In this document: one piece after another, positions 12,724 to 20,764 of the stretch
Layout of the letters: every line of letters begins with the position of its first letter
Position numbering within the stretch: the stretch's first letter is position 1
Source: Ichthyenterobacterium magnum
GTDB taxonomy: Bacteria > Bacteroidota > Bacteroidia > Flavobacteriales > Flavobacteriaceae
Reading direction: 5' to 3'
Length of the DNA: 64,000 bases
Assembly (NCBI RefSeq): GCF_003610635.1
Contig: NZ_RAQJ01000001.1
Coordinates: 558,474-622,473, forward strand
Position numbers and translations under genes: made by a program
The notes under the pieces: generated by a model
Databases searched by the model: none
Seen by the model: only the letters and a program-made list of their open reading frames with translations
What the model was told of the DNA's origin: nothing

Positions 12724-14242
12724 TTAATGAACTTGAAATAGAATTGGTAAACTATAAGGCACAACTACAGCTTTACCTTTATGTTTTCCTGAGATAAATG
12801 TTGGCAACGTTTGTATAACACGTATTGCTTCTTTTTCTAACTCTGGATGCGGTGCTCTTGCTCTTATACCAAATACTTTTCCGTTAGTATCAATTTTAAA
12901 AATAACGCTGATACGTTGTCTTCCTTCTAATCCAAGTGTTTTAGCTAAGTCTAGATTAAAATTCTTGTTAACGTGTTTAGCGATATTCTCAGTTAAACAC
13001 ACTTTTTTTCTTTCATTTGTTTCGTTTTTACAAAATGAAAATGTTGGCGACTCGTCAACAACTGCTATTGGAACTTCTACATTATCGAAACTAACTCCTG
13101 CATCTTCAACAACTTCTATTAACTCATTTAATGTCTCTTTAGAATTAACTTTTTTATCTTGCTCCCTTACTTCTTCTAAATTCATATAGAGTGTATAACT
13201 TAATCCATTGTTAGTGTTAATCTCAATTTCATTATATCCATTTGGAACTTTCTCATCGATTGAGTGCACCGAGTAAGTCATTTCATCTGTTATACGATTA
13301 AGTTCTGCCCAACCTACATACTTTGGGTTGTTGTTTAAAAATGCTTCGAAACGGTTACAAACTTCTTTTGTAGCTGCATCTATCATATTACCTGCTTTTA
13401 AGGTATAAGTGTATTGACTCTGATTGTTTATGCTTTCTGCATATGCTTCTTTTTCACAAGAAGTATAGATTAACATCCCAAAAACTAACGGAAGTAATAG
13501 TGTATACTTAATTAAATGAGTTTGTTTAGATTCTGACCTATTTAACATGAGTATTCGTTTTTTAATTAATGATTGTTTGAAAAATGGATTCACAAATGAA
13601 AACTGTTTTGTTTCGAAAATTTGAGTTAATAGGCTTTCATAATATTCTGTCTTGCTCTCATGTTTTACTGCTTTTTCATCTACAATAAATTCGTGCAATT
13701 CTGTTATTCGTTTTTGGTACATGTATCGATTCATGCTTTAAAATAGATGCTTGTTCTTCACTTTTAATCTGATCACCCAAGAACACATAGTGAAAAAACG
13801 AAAATGCAGCATTACTTTTAAGTAGCTTAACAATAAGAAGGTTGCCTTCCCAGCGTTTGGGGTTTTTAACCAATAACGTAAAAAGCTTTATCATTTTAAT
13901 TGCTAAAATGAGTGCAGCTACACATGCACCTATAATTAAAAACAACTCCCAAGTCCATACATTTGATGACTCAGAAACTATTCCTGCTTGTATGGCTATT
14001 GGATCAGTAACTTGAGGCACTGCATTACCAATAATAACTTCTGGTAATCGAATAACTAGTTGGTCTGAAACAATAGACTTAAAACTGCTTATTTTTATAA
14101 AAGGAAGAATAATAGAACTTATTGCAGCAATTAATAAGTAAGCTCTATTATAGTTAAAAAAGGTCTCTTTTTTTAAAACAACATCGTATATAATCAAAAA
14201 GACTAATTGAAATGCTATAGTTTGTAAAATATAATGCAACAT
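12724..14242 (-). pseudogene. M56-family (BlaR1-type) metallopeptidase with TonB C-terminal domain, broken by deletion/frameshift
   Basis: The first frame (14242 to 13676) encodes the BlaR1-like membrane part MLHYILQTIAFQL...NPKRWEGNLLIVKLLKSNAAFSFFHYVFLG and reaches the zinc motif HESIH, then drifts into PKTNNRIARIYCR and stops. A second frame (from about 13734 to 12724) resumes the family sequence at MYQKRITELHEFIVDEKAV and runs through NPFFKQSLIKKRI, a membrane helix with a cysteine, and a TonB_C domain ending SLPILFQVH. Intact relatives have roughly 25-28 residues between HExxH and the YQ(K/N)RI segment, including a WFNP motif. These are missing, so about 80 bases are lost with a frame change. 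The gene follows blaI by one base. A functional split protein is possible but unlikely. Confidence 0.78.
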
Positions 14243-15360: not shown

Positions 15361-15397
15361 TACGGAAAAACCGTAAACTTGATGCGGAAAAACCGTA
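15361..15397. promoter_or_regulatory. Twin palindromes TACGGAAAAACCGTA / TGCGGAAAAACCGTA
   Basis: Two 15-base near-identical sites (15361-15375 and 15383-15397) with inverted arms around AAAAA are spaced 22 bases centre to centre, about two helical turns. This looks like a tandem binding site for a dimeric regulator. It lies between the convergent DUF456 and response-regulator genes, where no known promoter is expected. Confidence 0.55.
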
Positions 15398-15439
15398 GTT
15401 TTCAGTAATAACAATAGATACAAGGCATTTAAAAATGGT

Positions 15440-15467
15440 AAAAAAGTGAAATTTTAACACTTTTTTT
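15440..15467 (-). terminator. Probable terminator of the response-regulator gene
   Basis: AAAAAAGTG and CACTTTTTT pair around a nine-base A/T loop. The hairpin starts at the response-regulator stop codon, and the minus strand reads into a T run. Confidence 0.55.
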
Positions 15468-16134
15468 ATAGAAATCCTTTTTTTTTGGCTTCATTAATTA
15501 GTGTTTCGTCCTTTCCATCTTCAATAGAAAACAAAAGTTTAAGTTGCTTTTTTCGTTTTTCAATAGCACTCATAGATAAATCTATGTACTCTATTAAGCT
15601 TCTTGTTTTTATGCCTTGAGATAATAAGTGAAGTATTTTACGGTTAACCTCATCGACATAAATTTCGTTAACGACTGCTTTATTTAAAAAGTTGCTTACT
15701 GTACTACTATAATATGGTGGGTCTACTAAAATATGGTGAAATGCTTCAGCCAATTCCATAGAGGTTAAATCACTTTTAATTAAAAAGCCATCTGGATTAA
15801 TTTCTTTAACAATACTATGTATACGGTAAGATTCGTTAAACATAGTTAAGATAATAACTTTAGAGTTTGGCAATATTTTACGTGCTATTTTTGCTAAATC
15901 TTCACCAGAAGTAATCTTTCCATCAGCAGAAGCTGGAAGGCTAATATCAAAAAAACACACATCGTACGGCTCACCATTTGCGGCTTTCTGCATCAATAAA
16001 TTAGCCGCATCACAATTGTTTGCTGTATCGATGTTTAATGTTTGATTTTCTTTTTTTGTAGCCATCAATGTATTTTGATAACCTTCAATTATGATAGGGT
16101 GATCGTCAACCATTAAAATATTGATGTGCTGCAT
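15466..16134 (-). CDS. LuxR/NarL-type response regulator
   Basis: A 222-residue regulator with a receiver domain at residues 5-135 (acidic pair in MVDDHP, phospho-acceptor D63 in VCFFDISLP, threonine in VIILTMFNES, lysine in FLIKSD). The C-terminal HTH (about 160-220: NRKILHLLSQGIKTRSLIEYIDLSMSAIEKRKKQL) is divergent from the standard LuxR signature. The gene follows the histidine kinase by six bases and certainly forms a two-component pair with it. Twin palindromes about 70-105 bases downstream are candidate targets. Confidence 0.9.
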   Translation of the reverse strand: MQHINILMVDDHPIIIEGYQNTLMATKKENQTLNIDTANNCDAANLLMQKAANGEPYDVCFFDISLPASADGKITSGEDLAKIARKILPNSKVIILTMFNESYRIHSIVKEINPDGFLIKSDLTSMELAEAFHHILVDPPYYSSTVSNFLNKAVVNEIYVDEVNRKILHLLSQGIKTRSLIEYIDLSMSAIEKRKKQLKLLFSIEDGKDETLINEAKKKGFL

Positions 16135-16140
16135 GATTAT

Positions 16141-18171
16141 TTAATTTGAGTATGGAATTTTAATTTCTACAGTTGTTCCTTCATCTAATTTAGAATTGAA
16201 CTCAACCTTACCTTCTAGTTCATCAACTCTAGAATTTATGTTTTTAAGCCCGATTCCTTTTTTGCTTTTAGTAACATCAAAGCCTTCTCCATCATCTGTA
16301 ATTGCTAAGCAAATTACATTATTTTTTAATTGAAAACTAATTTTTACTTGCTTTGCATTAGCATGTTTATAAATATTTTGGAGCGACTCTTGTATCACTC
16401 TGTAAATGTTGATCTTAGTTTTATTTGGTACAAACTCCCAATTAATGTCATCTGTAAAATTAAAGTCATATTTAAGTTGATATGCTTTAGCTTGTTTTTC
16501 AATAAGCTCAGAAACGATATCCATAAAACCAGATCCTGAAACAAAATCTGTATTTAAATCATGTGAAATTTGCCTGATGTCTTGCTCAATAATCTTTAAC
16601 TCGCCAATATAATTTGCTCTATTTGTTATGGCTTCTTTTCCTTCGCTAAAATTTAAGCTGTCTAAACTTAATCGTGTACCAAACAAACGTCCTAAAATAC
16701 CATCGTGAAGTTCTTCTGAAATACGTTTTTTCTCATTTGCTCGAGCTTCATCAACTTTATCTTGTTGAGATAACATTAAATTATATATCTCTTCATTTGC
16801 TTTTTGTTGATCTTGTATAAATTTTAATTCTTTGTTTTTTGCACGTTGTGTAATGATAATATATACAAGTGTAAGTGTTATTAATAATGCTATTGAAACT
16901 GCAGACAACCAAAGCTTTTGCTGAGAGATACGTTCGTTTTCTTGTTCTAATTCTTCAGTTTCTAGCTCTATTCTTGCGTATTTATTTCGCACATTGCGCT
17001 CAACATTTAATAAACTATCACTTAATTTAATATGCATATTAAGGTAGTCGTTACTTTTTTCAGCGTCTTCTAACTTAGAAAGCAGTAAAAGAGATTCTAA
17101 CACTAAATCGTTAGAAGATAATTCTTTAGATAGTTTATACGAGAGATTAGCATAGTGTAAAGCTGAATCTTTTTTTTCTATAGCCAAATAAAATCTTGAA
17201 TAGTCTATCGCTACACCTAGTTTTGTTAAAGGGTCTTGTATTGTATCACTAATTTTATAAGCTAACTTAAATATATCATTAACCTCCTTAATGTCTTTAT
17301 CCTTTTTTAGTGATTTAGCGTAGGCTAGATTACCCAAAGTTAAAGCATAAAAAGAAGGGTCATTAACATCTAAGTCGTTCTCATCTATAACACTTTGATA
17401 TAATTCAATAGACTTATCTAAATCTTCTATTTTTCTATAAACAATAGCTTGATTATTTTTTGAATAAAGTGTATTGTAATAGCCTACTTCTCCATCCATT
17501 TTTTCACTAATTTCTAAAGCTTTATTATAGTACTCTAAAGCTTTTTCATAATTATTTAATTTAAAAGAAATAATACCTATTTGATTATATAATATCCATA
17601 ACTGGTCTAATACGGCTTCACTTTCAGGTAAACTGGTAAATATTTTTATGGCTCTTACCGTATTCTCTTCACTTCCAAAATAATCTTTATCATATTGTTG
17701 CAAGTATGAAATATTAACAAGTATTTGGGCCTCTTTTTCAAATTGACCTTGCTTGTTATATAATTTTAATGCTTTAGAGTAATAATAATAAGCACTGTCA
17801 TTTTGTGAACTTGCATCATGATATATTGCCAAGTTATGATACGCTATTACAATAGAAGATGAATCTTTTAACTTATTTGCAAGTTCTAAATTTTGATGGT
17901 TAATTTCTTTAAATGCATTGTAGTTTTCAGTCAAATAATATAAAACTGAAAGACGTTTATCTGAATTCAAAATAGTAGTGTCTACTCTGCTATGATGGGC
18001 TAGACGTGAAGATTTAATGCTATATGTTAATTTCTCTTCTAAGGGTAAGTTAGGATCTTTTGATAAACTTCGATAAAAAAGAATACTATCTAATTCTGAA
18101 GTAGAATTATTTTCTTGTGCAAGTGACTTAATTGCTAAGCATAGAAAAATAAAAAAGATTAGTAATCGCAT
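16141..18171 (-). CDS. Sensor histidine kinase with periplasmic TPR domain (HisKA_3 type)
   Basis: A 676-residue kinase with a signal peptide (residues 1-18), a long TPR sensor region (about 60-390; e.g. NYEKALEYYNKALEIS and DLDKSIELYQSVI), a coiled coil, one membrane helix near 419-440 (WLSAVSIALLITLTLVYIII), then the phospho-acceptor motif KRISEELHDGILGRLFGTRL with His near residue 487, and a GHKL ATPase (IYRVIQESLQNIYKHANA; ITDDGEGFD; KKGIGLKNINSRV). The arrangement puts the TPRs in the periplasm, where they could bind a peptide or protein. It is cotranscribed with the LuxR-type regulator, and a small secreted peptide gene lies 130 bases upstream. Confidence 0.92.
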   Translation of the reverse strand: MRLLIFFIFLCLAIKSLAQENNSTSELDSILFYRSLSKDPNLPLEEKLTYSIKSSRLAHHSRVDTTILNSDKRLSVLYYLTENYNAFKEINHQNLELANKLKDSSSIVIAYHNLAIYHDASSQNDSAYYYYSKALKLYNKQGQFEKEAQILVNISYLQQYDKDYFGSEENTVRAIKIFTSLPESEAVLDQLWILYNQIGIISFKLNNYEKALEYYNKALEISEKMDGEVGYYNTLYSKNNQAIVYRKIEDLDKSIELYQSVIDENDLDVNDPSFYALTLGNLAYAKSLKKDKDIKEVNDIFKLAYKISDTIQDPLTKLGVAIDYSRFYLAIEKKDSALHYANLSYKLSKELSSNDLVLESLLLLSKLEDAEKSNDYLNMHIKLSDSLLNVERNVRNKYARIELETEELEQENERISQQKLWLSAVSIALLITLTLVYIIITQRAKNKELKFIQDQQKANEEIYNLMLSQQDKVDEARANEKKRISEELHDGILGRLFGTRLSLDSLNFSEGKEAITNRANYIGELKIIEQDIRQISHDLNTDFVSGSGFMDIVSELIEKQAKAYQLKYDFNFTDDINWEFVPNKTKINIYRVIQESLQNIYKHANAKQVKISFQLKNNVICLAITDDGEGFDVTKSKKGIGLKNINSRVDELEGKVEFNSKLDEGTTVEIKIPYSN

Positions 18172-18244
18172 TAAGCAGGCTTAATAAATAATTCTAATCC
18201 AAATTTAGGCTAAAATTTAACCTAAACAAATAAACAGTAGTAAT

Positions 18245-18283
18245 ATATATAGCTCTTACCTATAAAGAATAAGAGCTATATAT
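18245..18283. terminator. Strong hairpin between secreted peptide gene and kinase gene
   Basis: A 14-base perfect inverted repeat (core AGCTCTTA/TAAGAGCT) with an 11-base loop. There is no long T run, so it may be a weak terminator, attenuator or mRNA-stabilising hairpin between the peptide gene and the kinase. Confidence 0.5.
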
Positions 18284-18301
18284 TAAATAAGTTAATATAT
18301 T

Positions 18302-18472
18302 CTAACCTTGAGGTTGCAAGGTTTTTTTAGACTTATTAAGAGCTATTAAATCATAAGTTGTTGTAGCCTCATAAGTATCTACTTCATTTTGTTTGATAGT
18401 ATCACTACTCTGTCCTGAAACAGTTAGTACTAATACTGCTAATAATAGAAATGTAATTTTTAGAGCTTTCAT
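18302..18472 (-). CDS. Small secreted peptide (56 residues) upstream of the TPR kinase
   Basis: A 57-codon frame from ATG 18472 to TAG 18302. The first 20 residues (MKALKITFLLLAVLVLTVSG) form a textbook signal peptide with likely cleavage before QSSD. The mature part is about 36 residues, polar, and ends KSKKTLQPQG, with a DLIALNKSKK core. I do not recognise a characterised family. It lies on the same strand and immediately upstream of the periplasmic-TPR sensor kinase, so a signalling or accessory role is possible; that is inference. Codon use and signal peptide quality support a real gene although it is short. Confidence 0.65.
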   Translation of the reverse strand: MKALKITFLLLAVLVLTVSGQSSDTIKQNEVDTYEATTTYDLIALNKSKKTLQPQG

Positions 18473-18897
18473 GGTCATTTAATTTAGGGATTATACAATA
18501 GTCAATAATATGTTTGTTTATGTTAATTAATAATTATTAAGCATTACAACAATGCCACTTGAGGGAAGAATGGATTATTAATTATTGAGCATAAAAAGGC
18601 TCAATCTTGTATAAAATTGAGGGATAGTATAAGACACATAAATGCATCTAAAAGTAAAATGGATTAAAGTTTTCTTGAATAAGTGATTTAGGGGCTTATT
18701 TAAGAACTACGAATATAGGCTAAAATTATTTCGAAATAAAAATAAATCGGATTAAACGTTAGTTATTATCGATAAAATGCGTTTTTGCAATCAATTTTTG
18801 TTGATTAACTGTTAATATCTCACTTTTATGGAGCTACAAAACACTATAATAAAAATTATGTAATTTAATGGTGATTATAAATTTTAAGTCATAGTAT
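18473..18897. other. 425-base intergenic region without a recognised gene
   Basis: A very A+T-rich divergent region between the peptide gene and the candidate restriction endonuclease. It contains a hairpin at 18584-18605 (ATTGAGC/GCTCAAT) and a perfect 14-base palindrome TTATTTCGAAATAA at 18726-18739. I found no open frame longer than about ten codons worth reporting and no clear TAnnTTTG box. Confidence 0.6.
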
Positions 18898-19521
18898 ATG
18901 TCATTCTTCAATAGAGATTTAAGTAAAGAGCAAATTATAAGCGAGTACCTAAATGACTTATACTATGACTTAAAACTAAACTTTATTAGAAATAAGGATT
19001 TAGATTTACAACTTAAAGGCGTTGATCTTATATACCAGCATAAAGGAACAGATTTTTTTATTGACGAAAAAGCTCAATTAGATTATATTAATATTGAGTT
19101 ACCTACATTTACTTTTGAGTTGTCTTACTTAAAAAATGGTGAAAATAAATTAGGCTGGCTTATTGACCAAACTAAAATCACAACGCATTATTTTTTAATA
19201 ACTAGTATTTATGCTAAAGATAAAAATGACTTATTAAAAGGGTTTACATCATGTAAAATAACGAGTGTTAACAGAAATAAACTTAACACTTATTTAAATA
19301 CGATTGGATTAACTATTGAGCAATTAAATTGTTACCAAAACAACATTAGAAAAGCCGATAACAAAAAGACTAAAATAAAAATTGACGAATTGAATGCTAA
19401 AACACAAGGGCTTCTCTATTATTCTAATCATTTAAGTGAAAAACCTATAAACTTACAATTGCGGTTAGATTTTCTTATAAAGAAAAAAATAGCAAAACAA
19501 ATCTATCCTAAAGCTACTTAA
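18898..19521 (+). CDS. Probable type II restriction endonuclease (PD-(D/E)XK type)
   Basis: A 207-residue protein I do not recognise by name. It holds a candidate nuclease motif: D43 in GVDLIYQHKG, then D56-E57-K58 in FFIDEKAQLDYIN, i.e. D-x12-D-E-K, the usual PD-(D/E)XK spacing, after an N-terminal helix MSFFNRDLSKEQIISEYLND. The gene converges on and overlaps by eight bases a cytosine-5 methyltransferase, the classic arrangement of a type II restriction-modification pair. A structural or unrelated role is possible because endonucleases diverge quickly. The recognition site cannot be read from the sequence. Confidence 0.68.
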   Translation: MSFFNRDLSKEQIISEYLNDLYYDLKLNFIRNKDLDLQLKGVDLIYQHKGTDFFIDEKAQLDYINIELPTFTFELSYLKNGENKLGWLIDQTKITTHYFLITSIYAKDKNDLLKGFTSCKITSVNRNKLNTYLNTIGLTIEQLNCYQNNIRKADNKKTKIKIDELNAKTQGLLYYSNHLSEKPINLQLRLDFLIKKKIAKQIYPKAT

Positions 19522-20764
19522 TTCTTTTAAGTAATGTTTCTCCTATTTTTTCGATAACACCAACAACCAAAGCGTTACCCATAAAAAAGGCTCTTTTAGT
19601 ATCTGTAATACTTTCTAACTTTGTGTGATTATCTGGAAACATATTTAAACGTTCTAATTCTTGTGGCACTAATCGTCTATAACCACGCTTGGTTTTAACC
19701 ACATGTTTAAATCTAGATGCAGATTTACCGCCTTCGCCAGTAATTATTGTTCTTGAAGAATTATCTAATGCATCTGGAAACACCATACTACCTTCACTAT
19801 ACTTATACTTAAAACCCTCTTTAGTTTCTCTAACTTCGCTTTTAGCTCCTTTAAGATATTTCCATTTATGTAATTCATCTTCAGAAATAAAATATGCTTC
19901 TGGAACACCTTTATCTTTAATCAGTATGTCTTTTAAATGTGTGTAGCTGCCATTATATATTGACTTTGTTTTCATAGTAAAAACGTCGCCATTAATAAAC
20001 ACACCATTTGTTTCAAAAGGAGACAACTTACCTCCTATATTGAAATTATCTGATATGTGTTTAACGTCTTTATTTAAAACAAAAGTAGCTTCACTTTTAT
20101 CAAATTGAACTGGAAAACTTTCAGCTAAAACACCATCATTTAAAATCCAATCTTCTTTATTAGACTTGCTAAATGTTTTATAAATATTAGTTGATTTATG
20201 ATATGCTAAAATAAACACACGTCGTCTTCTCTGAGGCATTCCGTAATCTGCAGCGTTAATAACGCGCCACTCAACAGCATATCCTAACTCATCTAAACTC
20301 TTTAACATGATGGCAAAATCTCGACCTCTTTGTGTTGACGGCGATTTTAAAAGGCGGTCTACGTTTTCTAGAAACAGATACTTGGGTTTGTTTGTTTTTT
20401 CTTCTAGAATTCTGTAAATCTGCCACCATAAAACACCTTTTTTACCTTGTAATCCTTTTGAGTTTTTTAGTGTAGTTGCAACTGAGTAATCTTGACAAGG
20501 AAATCCGCCAACCAACATATCATGGTCGGGAATATCATTAGTTTTAACTTGAGCAATATCATTATTAGAATGGTTACTTGCTCCAAAACGTGCTTCGTAA
20601 ACTAACGAAGCATGCTGCATTTTTGTAGAAGGCTCCCATTGGTTACTCCAAACCACATCAAACTTATTTTTAACACTTTCTTTATTGGCTTTTTCCAACC
20701 CTAATCTAAAGCCACCAACACCCGCAAATAATTCTATAACTTTAATACGTTTTGTTTTACTCAT
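19514..20764 (-). CDS. DNA (cytosine-5-)-methyltransferase
   Basis: A 416-residue C5 methyltransferase with motifs in order: I (VIELFAGVGGFRLGLE), IV with catalytic C90 (LVGGFPCQDYS), VI (FLENVDRLL), VIII (MPQRRRRVFILA), a target-recognition region about 200-350, IX (RRLVPQELERLNMFPDNH) and X (FFMGNALVVGVIEKIG). It transfers a methyl group from SAM to cytosine, probably protecting DNA from the convergent candidate endonuclease. The start ATG is 17 bases after a TATTTTTG box. The specificity is unknown. Confidence 0.95.
   Translation of the reverse strand: MSKTKRIKVIELFAGVGGFRLGLEKANKESVKNKFDVVWSNQWEPSTKMQHASLVYEARFGASNHSNNDIAQVKTNDIPDHDMLVGGFPCQDYSVATTLKNSKGLQGKKGVLWWQIYRILEEKTNKPKYLFLENVDRLLKSPSTQRGRDFAIMLKSLDELGYAVEWRVINAADYGMPQRRRRVFILAYHKSTNIYKTFSKSNKEDWILNDGVLAESFPVQFDKSEATFVLNKDVKHISDNFNIGGKLSPFETNGVFINGDVFTMKTKSIYNGSYTHLKDILIKDKGVPEAYFISEDELHKWKYLKGAKSEVRETKEGFKYKYSEGSMVFPDALDNSSRTIITGEGGKSASRFKHVVKTKRGYRRLVPQELERLNMFPDNHTKLESITDTKRAFFMGNALVVGVIEKIGETLLKRIK

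Follow-up and report, generated by a model that had tools for sequence, protein, structure and literature searches.

In the ComQXPA system of Bacillus, a pre-peptide gene adjoins the genes for a histidine kinase and a response regulator (ComX-ComP-ComA), and conservation falls in the order ComA, ComP, ComQ, ComX, with a variable N terminus in ComP and a variable C terminus in ComX (PMC4008528). The RRNPPA receptors (Rap, NprR, PlcR, Rgg, ComR, PrgX, and AimR) respond to peptide signals, fold as a superhelix of tetratricopeptide repeats (TPRs), and are presented in PMC9765709 as cytoplasmic proteins described from Firmicutes. FimS-FimR of Porphyromonas gingivalis is a Bacteroidota system whose sensor kinase carries a periplasmic TPR domain, and the signal of FimS is stated to be unknown (PMC11053733). 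Here we describe a locus that resembles each of these in part. It lies in a stretch of 64,000 nucleotides (nt) from the flavobacterium Ichthyenterobacterium magnum (contig NZ_RAQJ01000001.1, positions 558,474 to 622,473; the whole stretch is called the window below) and encodes a small exported peptide, a TPR-bearing sensor histidine kinase, and a response regulator. Judging from the sequence comparisons below, we think it likely that the three form an autoregulated peptide-signaling two-component system with pherotype-like diversification in the Flavobacteriaceae.

How does this unit compare with the described systems? As in ComQXPA (PMC4008528), the pre-peptide gene adjoins the kinase and regulator genes, the regulator is conserved, and the sensor N terminus and the signal C terminus are hypervariable. 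Unlike ComQXPA, it has no ComQ-like gene among the six neighbors tested, its peptide export looks like Sec export with a signal peptide, its host is Gram-negative, and its sensor is a TPR array rather than a polytopic membrane domain. With the RRNPPA receptors it shares a predicted superhelix of the same class. Unlike theirs, its TPRs follow a signal peptide, precede a hydrophobic stretch, and are fused to a membrane histidine kinase; the receptor would not be cytoplasmic, and re-import of a pheromone by an oligopeptide permease is not expected for a periplasmic receptor. The kinase matches the NCBIfam FimS model only weakly, at 53.5 bits where the cut-off is 600, which leaves it outside that family, and unlike FimS it has a candidate ligand encoded next door. 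The initial annotation of this DNA had called a secreted peptide partnered to a periplasmic TPR kinase unusual, which as regards the kinase was overstated, as FimS also has a periplasmic TPR domain (PMC11053733). By architecture, the unit would work like ComXPA and the RRNPPA receptors while being a member of neither, because its receptor is not cytoplasmic and neither a ComQ- nor an AgrB-like processing gene was found among the six neighboring window genes (Pfam). No description of it appears among the matches listed in the literature on peptide signaling in Flavobacteriaceae and Bacteroidota, a coverage that mostly excludes subscription literature.

From the gene order, its conservation, the co-variation, the predicted fold class, the operator-like repeat, the terminator-like hairpins, and the leader, all observed and described below, we infer the following course. 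The pre-peptide from the small gene would be exported by Sec, cleaved by signal peptidase to a 36-residue peptide starting with Gln, and released from the cell. Its last ~17 residues would bind directly to the cognate kinase, in the groove on the concave side of the periplasmic TPR superhelix, and the kinase would then shift the phosphorylation state of the NarL/LuxR-type regulator encoded next to it. This regulator would bind an ATTTnATCG tandem repeat with 21-bp spacing above the peptide promoter, closing a feedback loop whose sign we take to be autoinducing, and probably also similar sites at other promoters. Tail and groove would diversify together into specificity groups like pherotypes, which makes communication between like cells the likeliest role.

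Conserved pairing of the peptide with the kinase and regulator

The three genes follow one another in the order peptide, kinase, regulator on the minus strand, as do all features of the unit given below. According to the window's open reading frames (ORFs) and translations, they are a 56-codon precursor of an exported peptide (18302..18472), a sensor histidine kinase of 676 amino acids (aa; 16141..18171) beginning after a gap of 130 bases, and a 222-aa response regulator (15466..16134). An alternative ATG two codons 5' of the peptide start would give 58 codons. The initial annotation had this layout right; it did not mention the repeat at the proposed operator, the leader and its structure, or the joint diversification of tail and sensor. 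Read by eye, residues 1 to 20 of the peptide are a signal peptide, leaving a mature part of 36 aa whose first residue is Gln. Alignment places Gln at the probable cleavage point in many relatives too, in agreement with the Q-rule of Bacteroidetes (PMC5837995 and PMC10653852). The C-terminal segment (18305..18379), which we propose as the signal on the strength of the alignment and of its co-variation with the TPRs, is conserved but diversifying, with the consensus TYxx..YDLLAHxKxKxxLPxxG. The mature part is therefore not unconserved, a possibility that had been raised against the peptide's role. No Pfam or NCBIfam family matches the peptide, and the single strong match in its own genome is the peptide itself, with no second good copy.

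Is the small gene a chance reading frame? Among 299 sampled Flavobacteriaceae genomes, 20 (its own included) have a peptide match at E ≤ 0.01, and 18 of these, the window among them, stand directly before a kinase and regulator; on these grounds a chance ORF was rejected. The remaining two (G007 and G136) fall within larger ORFs, the stretch examined around each containing no kinase match, and are taken as chance segments. A peptide widespread without the kinase, another objection foreseen in the initial annotation, was likewise rejected, as no true family member lacking the kinase was found at this threshold. A weaker match (L036, E 0.109) has the same layout as the window unit.

To avoid dependence on peptide similarity, the regulator was then used as the anchor. 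It is present in 87 of the 299 genomes (E ≤ 1e-80), with one match in each. At the 80 named loci, which are the best 80 of 334 relatives found, a family peptide lies directly upstream of the kinase in 78. A further set was formed from 60 of the 68 regulator-bearing genomes without a peptide locus in hand, the other eight being left out, and there a small exported protein precedes the kinase in 58; a lipobox is present in 44 of these 58 small proteins, often as SC-TKQDLNEDD accompanied by a TGG tail, and absent from 14. The two misses are L151, where a family-type ORF lies ~460 nt ahead of the matched kinase, and L185, where only part of the kinase is matched. Four loci are common to both sets (L097/L146, L134/L147, L144/L148, and L145/L149). 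Two of the 80 were dropped from the co-variation, operator, and hairpin counts: L115, where the contig offers ~350 nt ahead of the matched kinase and no family ORF was found, and L134, with a divergent lipoprotein-type peptide. These loci thus share with ComQXPA- and Agr-type systems a dedicated pre-peptide gene adjoining the kinase and regulator, and, with the regulator in 87 of 299 genomes, the module extends across much of the Flavobacteriaceae. In an order-wide sample, 5 of 246 genomes matched at E ≤ 1e-60, all from the same family (its own included). The pairing, together with a co-variation specific to the peptide C terminus and the TPRs, strongly supports the suggestion that the secreted peptide is the partner of the TPR kinase.

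At the loci of more distant regulators (34 to 46% identity), a small exported ORF, mostly lipoprotein-like, precedes the kinase in 9 of 12 (by eye). The TPR kinase/regulator pairs of this more distant set (L282, L283, L285 to L289, L291, and L292), whose kinase N termini are often lipobox-like, are possibly a second branch of the same signaling family. Elsewhere in the window's genome, no small exported ORF (ATG ORFs of at least 38 aa, by eye) was found before two TPR kinases (L295 and L297) or a further HisKA_3 kinase without Pfam TPRs (L296).

Within the kinase, Pfam finds TPRs and HATPase_c, with HisKA_3 below its cut-off. The signal peptide ends in SLAQ and a hydrophobic stretch lies near residue 425; from these two features, both read by eye, the TPRs would be periplasmic. 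Only the receiver of the regulator is above the Pfam cut-off, and the NCBIfam NarL, RcsB, and GacA models extend to residue 193 to 205 with scores far below their cut-offs. The earlier label of LuxR-type regulator thus stands as to class, on this coverage, with the reservation that the NarL/LuxR-type C terminus is divergent. Mean column identity of the regulator is 81% among 12 members picked for spread.

What kind of sensor is the TPR array? AlphaFold 2 (AF2) was run on read-through constructs from two loci (L088 and L101), each comprising the mature peptide, the intergenic linker, and the TPR region. The superhelix is predicted at above 90 in the predicted local distance difference test (pLDDT) over most of its length. 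Fold comparison of the sensor model with Foldseek and VIA-align 2 ranked LGN/Pins first (Z 27 to 29), then RapI (26.0) and NprR (24.8). Rap and NprR receptor-peptide complexes match at Z 22 to 24, and non-pheromone TPR structures such as APPBP2, O-GlcNAc transferase, and BBSome subunits are close behind (Z 20 to 24). By fold match of the predicted model only, the sensor would be a TPR superhelix of the class found in peptide receptors, and a common fold with such receptors does not prove a common ligand.

Co-variation of the peptide tail and the TPR sensor

Distances were compared across the window and 78 named loci (79 in all), among which we defined two groups. The Psychroserpens-like group (21 loci) comprises the window and L066 to L085, including several metagenome-assembled genomes and other titles; the Winogradskyella-like group has 36 loci, with L101 and L133 bearing other titles. 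Mean distances in the former are 0.08 for the regulator, 0.17 for the kinase core, 0.53 for the TPRs, and 0.65 for the peptide C terminus, and in the latter 0.12, 0.19, 0.61, and 0.60. Within the groups, these alignments indicate a conserved kinase core and regulator and a hypervariable TPR sensor and peptide C terminus that co-vary.

Does the tail follow the sensor, or simply the locus in which it resides? In the Winogradskyella-like group, the C terminus tracks the TPRs (partial rho 0.40, p = 0.002) and neither the core (0.01) nor the regulator (-0.02); in the Psychroserpens-like group the value against the TPRs is 0.37 (p = 0.002). Over all 79 loci, the values are 0.22 for the TPRs (p = 0.002), 0.08 for the core (p = 0.07), and 0.04 for the regulator (p = 0.21). 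The signal peptide does not track the TPRs (0.05 and -0.05 in the groups); it tracks the core and, in part, the regulator. A p of 0.002 is the floor of 499 permutations, and the p-values are approximate because relatedness is controlled only through the distances.

The co-variation is also localized within the kinase. In the TPR part (residues 76 to 375; 17047..17946), 54 of 300 columns co-vary with the peptide C terminus at Z ≥ 4, against none of 234 in the core, where 73 columns are variable, and the co-varying columns end sharply near residue 380. Kinase residues 116, 156, 159, 195, 280, and 357 are among the top-scoring columns. In TPR folds, the A helices line the concave face. With A and B helices assigned by us from the AF2 helices, positions at Z ≥ 4 number 32 of 134 in A helices versus 11 of 115 in B helices (Fisher p = 0.004), and the enrichment persists at other cut-offs (Z ≥ 3, p = 0.018; Z ≥ 5, p = 0.049; Z ≥ 6, p = 0.007), with variability equal in the two kinds of helix (0.44).

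Comparisons between the groups point the same way. Mean TPR identity between them is 40%. The 15 of 756 cross-group pairs with the most similar TPRs have a C-terminus identity of 54%, against 35% elsewhere (p = 0.0002), at near-equal identity of signal peptides (77% versus 76%, p = 0.25) and equal identity of regulators (73% in both). Examples are L083/L137 (TPR 73%, C terminus 73%) and L069/L129 (64% and 72%). Linkage as the sole cause of the co-variation was rejected by the signal-peptide, core, and cross-group comparisons. As statistical co-variation, the co-diversifying signal and sensor of ComQXPA- and Agr-type systems thus have a counterpart here.

Operator-like repeat, leader, and intergenic hairpin

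Above the peptide promoter stands a tandem direct repeat, ATTTTATCG-N12-GTTTAATCC in the window (18749..18778), with a period of 21 bp. Its general form is (C/T)ATTTnATCG, and with spacings of 18 to 25 allowed the best one is exactly 21 bp in 67 of the 79 loci. In the further set, of which 59 of the 60 loci enter this count (L163 is a wrong pick, L194 a contig end), the best spacing is 19 to 21 in 52 of 59. The repeat is probably the operator of the regulator. Its conserved place above the peptide promoter could allow autoinduction of the signal gene, a trait of ComQXPA- and Agr-type systems. The promoter itself has a TAnnTTTG-like element, TATATTCG in the window (18710..18717). Exact TAnnTTTG is found in 57 of 79 loci against a shuffled mean of 7.4, and a looser pattern that fits TATATTCG too in 75 of 79 (without a shuffle control).

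Might the regulator act elsewhere as well? Genome scans counted sites within one mismatch of the repeat against a control with the pattern reversed. The numbers were 104 versus 62 in 17 regulator-bearing genomes, 37 versus 16 where a weaker homologue is present (10 genomes), and 10 versus 28 in 7 genomes with no regulator match at E ≤ 1e-20. Sites outside the unit were taken from the matches listed, up to 30 per scan. Among these, the repeat stands before ECF sigma genes (L234, L236, and L240; Pfam for L236), alpha/beta hydrolase genes (L246 by Pfam; L224, L232, and L251 by eye), and genes for secreted lipoproteins (L230 and L235, by eye). It also stands before a small Fer4_19-type iron-sulfur gene in at least six genomes (L226, L227, L229, L231, L238, and L239; Pfam for L231). 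The genes behind such sites are candidate targets of the regulator, the Fer4_19-type gene being a recurrent one.

Arrays of several ATTTnATCG repeats were seen in a similar intergenic region at L208, L224, L232, L246, and L251. In four genomes the array faces an exported alpha/beta hydrolase; in the window genome (L208), the hydrolase is absent from the stretch.

The peptide mRNA appears to begin with a conserved leader (18473..18706, its start inferred from the promoter-like element), which has a 5' hairpin together with TCCATT and CCCTC elements and is roughly 200 to 230 nt long across loci. In the hairpin (18672..18706), both sides change in 7 of 10 pairs, which 0 of 500 shuffles reach. The 42 sequences used were reduced from 79 leaders through 71 (operator score) and 66 (redundancy), the last step being a choice by eye for alignability, a selection that favors the hairpin in this test. 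RNAalifold gave no pairs on the 5' hairpin alignment and only -5.3 on the full leader alignment. One leader element, ATCCATTCTTCCCTC (18561..18575), holds the site matched by ATCCATTNNTCCCTC, which has one exact match in the genome, at this element. Over 137 leaders (three loci counted twice, L163 left out), TCCATT-type elements average 1.95 per leader versus 0.62 after base shuffling and CCCTC elements 2.02 versus 0.07, and a joint TCCATT/CCCTC motif is present in 112 against a shuffled mean of 0.2. Rfam (E up to 5) gave two sub-gathering matches on window positions 15 to 20 kb, neither on the leader, and at gathering scores only tRNAs in eight loci.

The gap between peptide and kinase genes contains a perfect 14-bp hairpin in terminator position (18245..18283; arms 18245-18258 and 18270-18283) and, nearer the kinase, a TAnnTTTG promoter-like element (18200..18207). 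A hairpin occurs in this gap in 75 of 79 loci and is joined by a run of T in 47, against a shuffled mean of 2.55 for the combination; TAnnTTTG lies within the last 60 nt before the kinase in 67 of 79 (without a shuffle control). The initial annotation's proposal that the hairpin could separate expression of the two genes thus gains from the loci where it looks like an intrinsic terminator and from the kinase element, and loses from the window hairpin, which has no run of T.

Around the unit, Pfam assigns the six window neighbors to Penicillinase_R, DUF456, a C5 DNA methylase, TonB_C, and, for two, to no family; neighbors in relatives were compared solely with these. Adjoining the Penicillinase_R (BlaI) gene, positions 12724-14242 of the minus strand hold two overlapping ORFs of 188 and 336 aa, the latter ending in TonB_C, where L057, L060, L061, and L062 have one frame of 516 to 613 aa; we take this split gene to be BlaR1/M56-like. 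Just upstream of the peptide leader (18898-20764) lie a 207-aa ORF without a Pfam family and, convergent with it, the C5-cytosine DNA methylase, possibly a restriction-modification pair, with no match in any of 20 related loci compared. The start of the 207-aa ORF is surrounded by a long inverted repeat that is nearly perfect (18885-18974) and has a microRNA match below the Rfam threshold; this repeat could play a regulatory part for the ORF.

Alternative explanations and significance

Several results weigh against peptide signaling through the TPR sensor. Structure prediction, which the initial annotation had recommended, gave no docking of the peptide in the read-through models of L088 and L101: its N-terminal half is below 50 pLDDT, its C-terminal half has block means of 58 then 51 (L088) and 60 then 71 (L101), and the artificial linker behind it reaches 48 to 73, so that these scores are no evidence of docking, the linker scoring about as well as the tail. 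The C terminus in the Psychroserpens-like group also shows a weak correlation with the core (0.21, p = 0.026), and when all 79 loci are pooled, the mature part taken whole follows the core (0.18, p = 0.004) and the regulator (0.15, p = 0.002) as well as the TPRs (0.18). Not all co-varying columns belong to A helices; some are in B helices or loops. In the cross-group comparison, the signal peptides too become slightly more similar if the selection is widened to 5% or 10% of pairs (p = 0.06), and the most TPR-alike pair, L081/L110 (76%), has C termini only 35% identical. A scan of the window genome for operator sites with up to two mismatches found 16 against 46 for the control, and hence no excess. 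Lastly, the lipoprotein form in 44 of the 58 further loci would mean membrane anchoring, a poor fit with a diffusible signal; in such members, the tail would have to be released, or else the peptide would have an anchored role private to its own cell.

That role leads to the chief alternative, in which the peptide acts on the kinase within the envelope, as an accessory protein or in feedback, and binds the TPRs but carries no signal from cell to cell. MgrB is a small envelope regulator of the kinase PhoQ, and both MgrB and CpxP exemplify small exported proteins that act on a sensor kinase, often under that kinase's control. Such a regulator would account no less well for the pairing, for the co-variation, and for an operator above the peptide gene, would stay anchored in its lipoprotein form, and would be in keeping with the lack of an exporter, protease, or modifying enzyme among the six window neighbors (Pfam). 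We nevertheless judge it unlikely, since it offers no evident reason for fast diversification while the regulator stays 92% identical (Psychroserpens-like group), nor for the occurrence of similar tail and TPR types in both groups of genera. To our knowledge, regulators of the MgrB/CpxP type are not known for pherotype-like diversification, unlike the flavobacterial peptide, whose tail evolves with its sensor. That tail and sensor diversify in step while the regulator hardly changes, as described for ComQXPA (PMC4008528), argues for signaling between like cells.

Could the peptide gene be merely a linked target of the regulator with some other envelope role, its co-variation arising from linkage and cassette recombination? 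The genes are adjacent, and TPR types look exchanged between groups, as TPR identity exceeds both core and regulator identity in 3 of 756 cross-group pairs (e.g., L081/L110, with 76%, 71%, and 73%). The signal peptide, however, is about equally near the TPR-encoding part and follows the core rather than the TPRs (more weakly across groups, p 0.06 to 0.25), and linkage would hardly give co-varying columns that end near residue 380 and favor A helices; we regard this explanation as very improbable. The idea that the gene serves mainly to make its transcript, a conserved and structured RNA in which a small protein is encoded incidentally, draws on the compensatory changes in the leader hairpin, the enriched leader elements, and the hairpin with a run of T after the peptide gene in 47 of 79 loci. 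We give it the least credence of all, as the reading frame, signal peptide, and C-terminal pattern are conserved, the tail co-varies with a protein domain, and the hairpin alignment yields no predicted pairs in RNAalifold.

If the peptide-signaling system is what we take it to be, what would it mean? In its widest form, the proposal is a Bacteroidota family of peptide-pheromone quorum sensing, with Sec-exported or lipoprotein-borne pheromones, periplasmic TPR kinases, cross-genus pherotypes, autoinduction through a tandem repeat, and a new leader RNA; here we see the chances as evenly balanced. A candidate ligand is encoded beside its receptor, and evolution points to the surface where the two may be in contact. 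In the sea, flavobacteria are major degraders of polysaccharides from algae, and if the reading is true, they have a peptide language with testable dialects, and the TPR-peptide principle of the Gram-positive RRNPPA receptors would extend to the Gram-negative periplasm.

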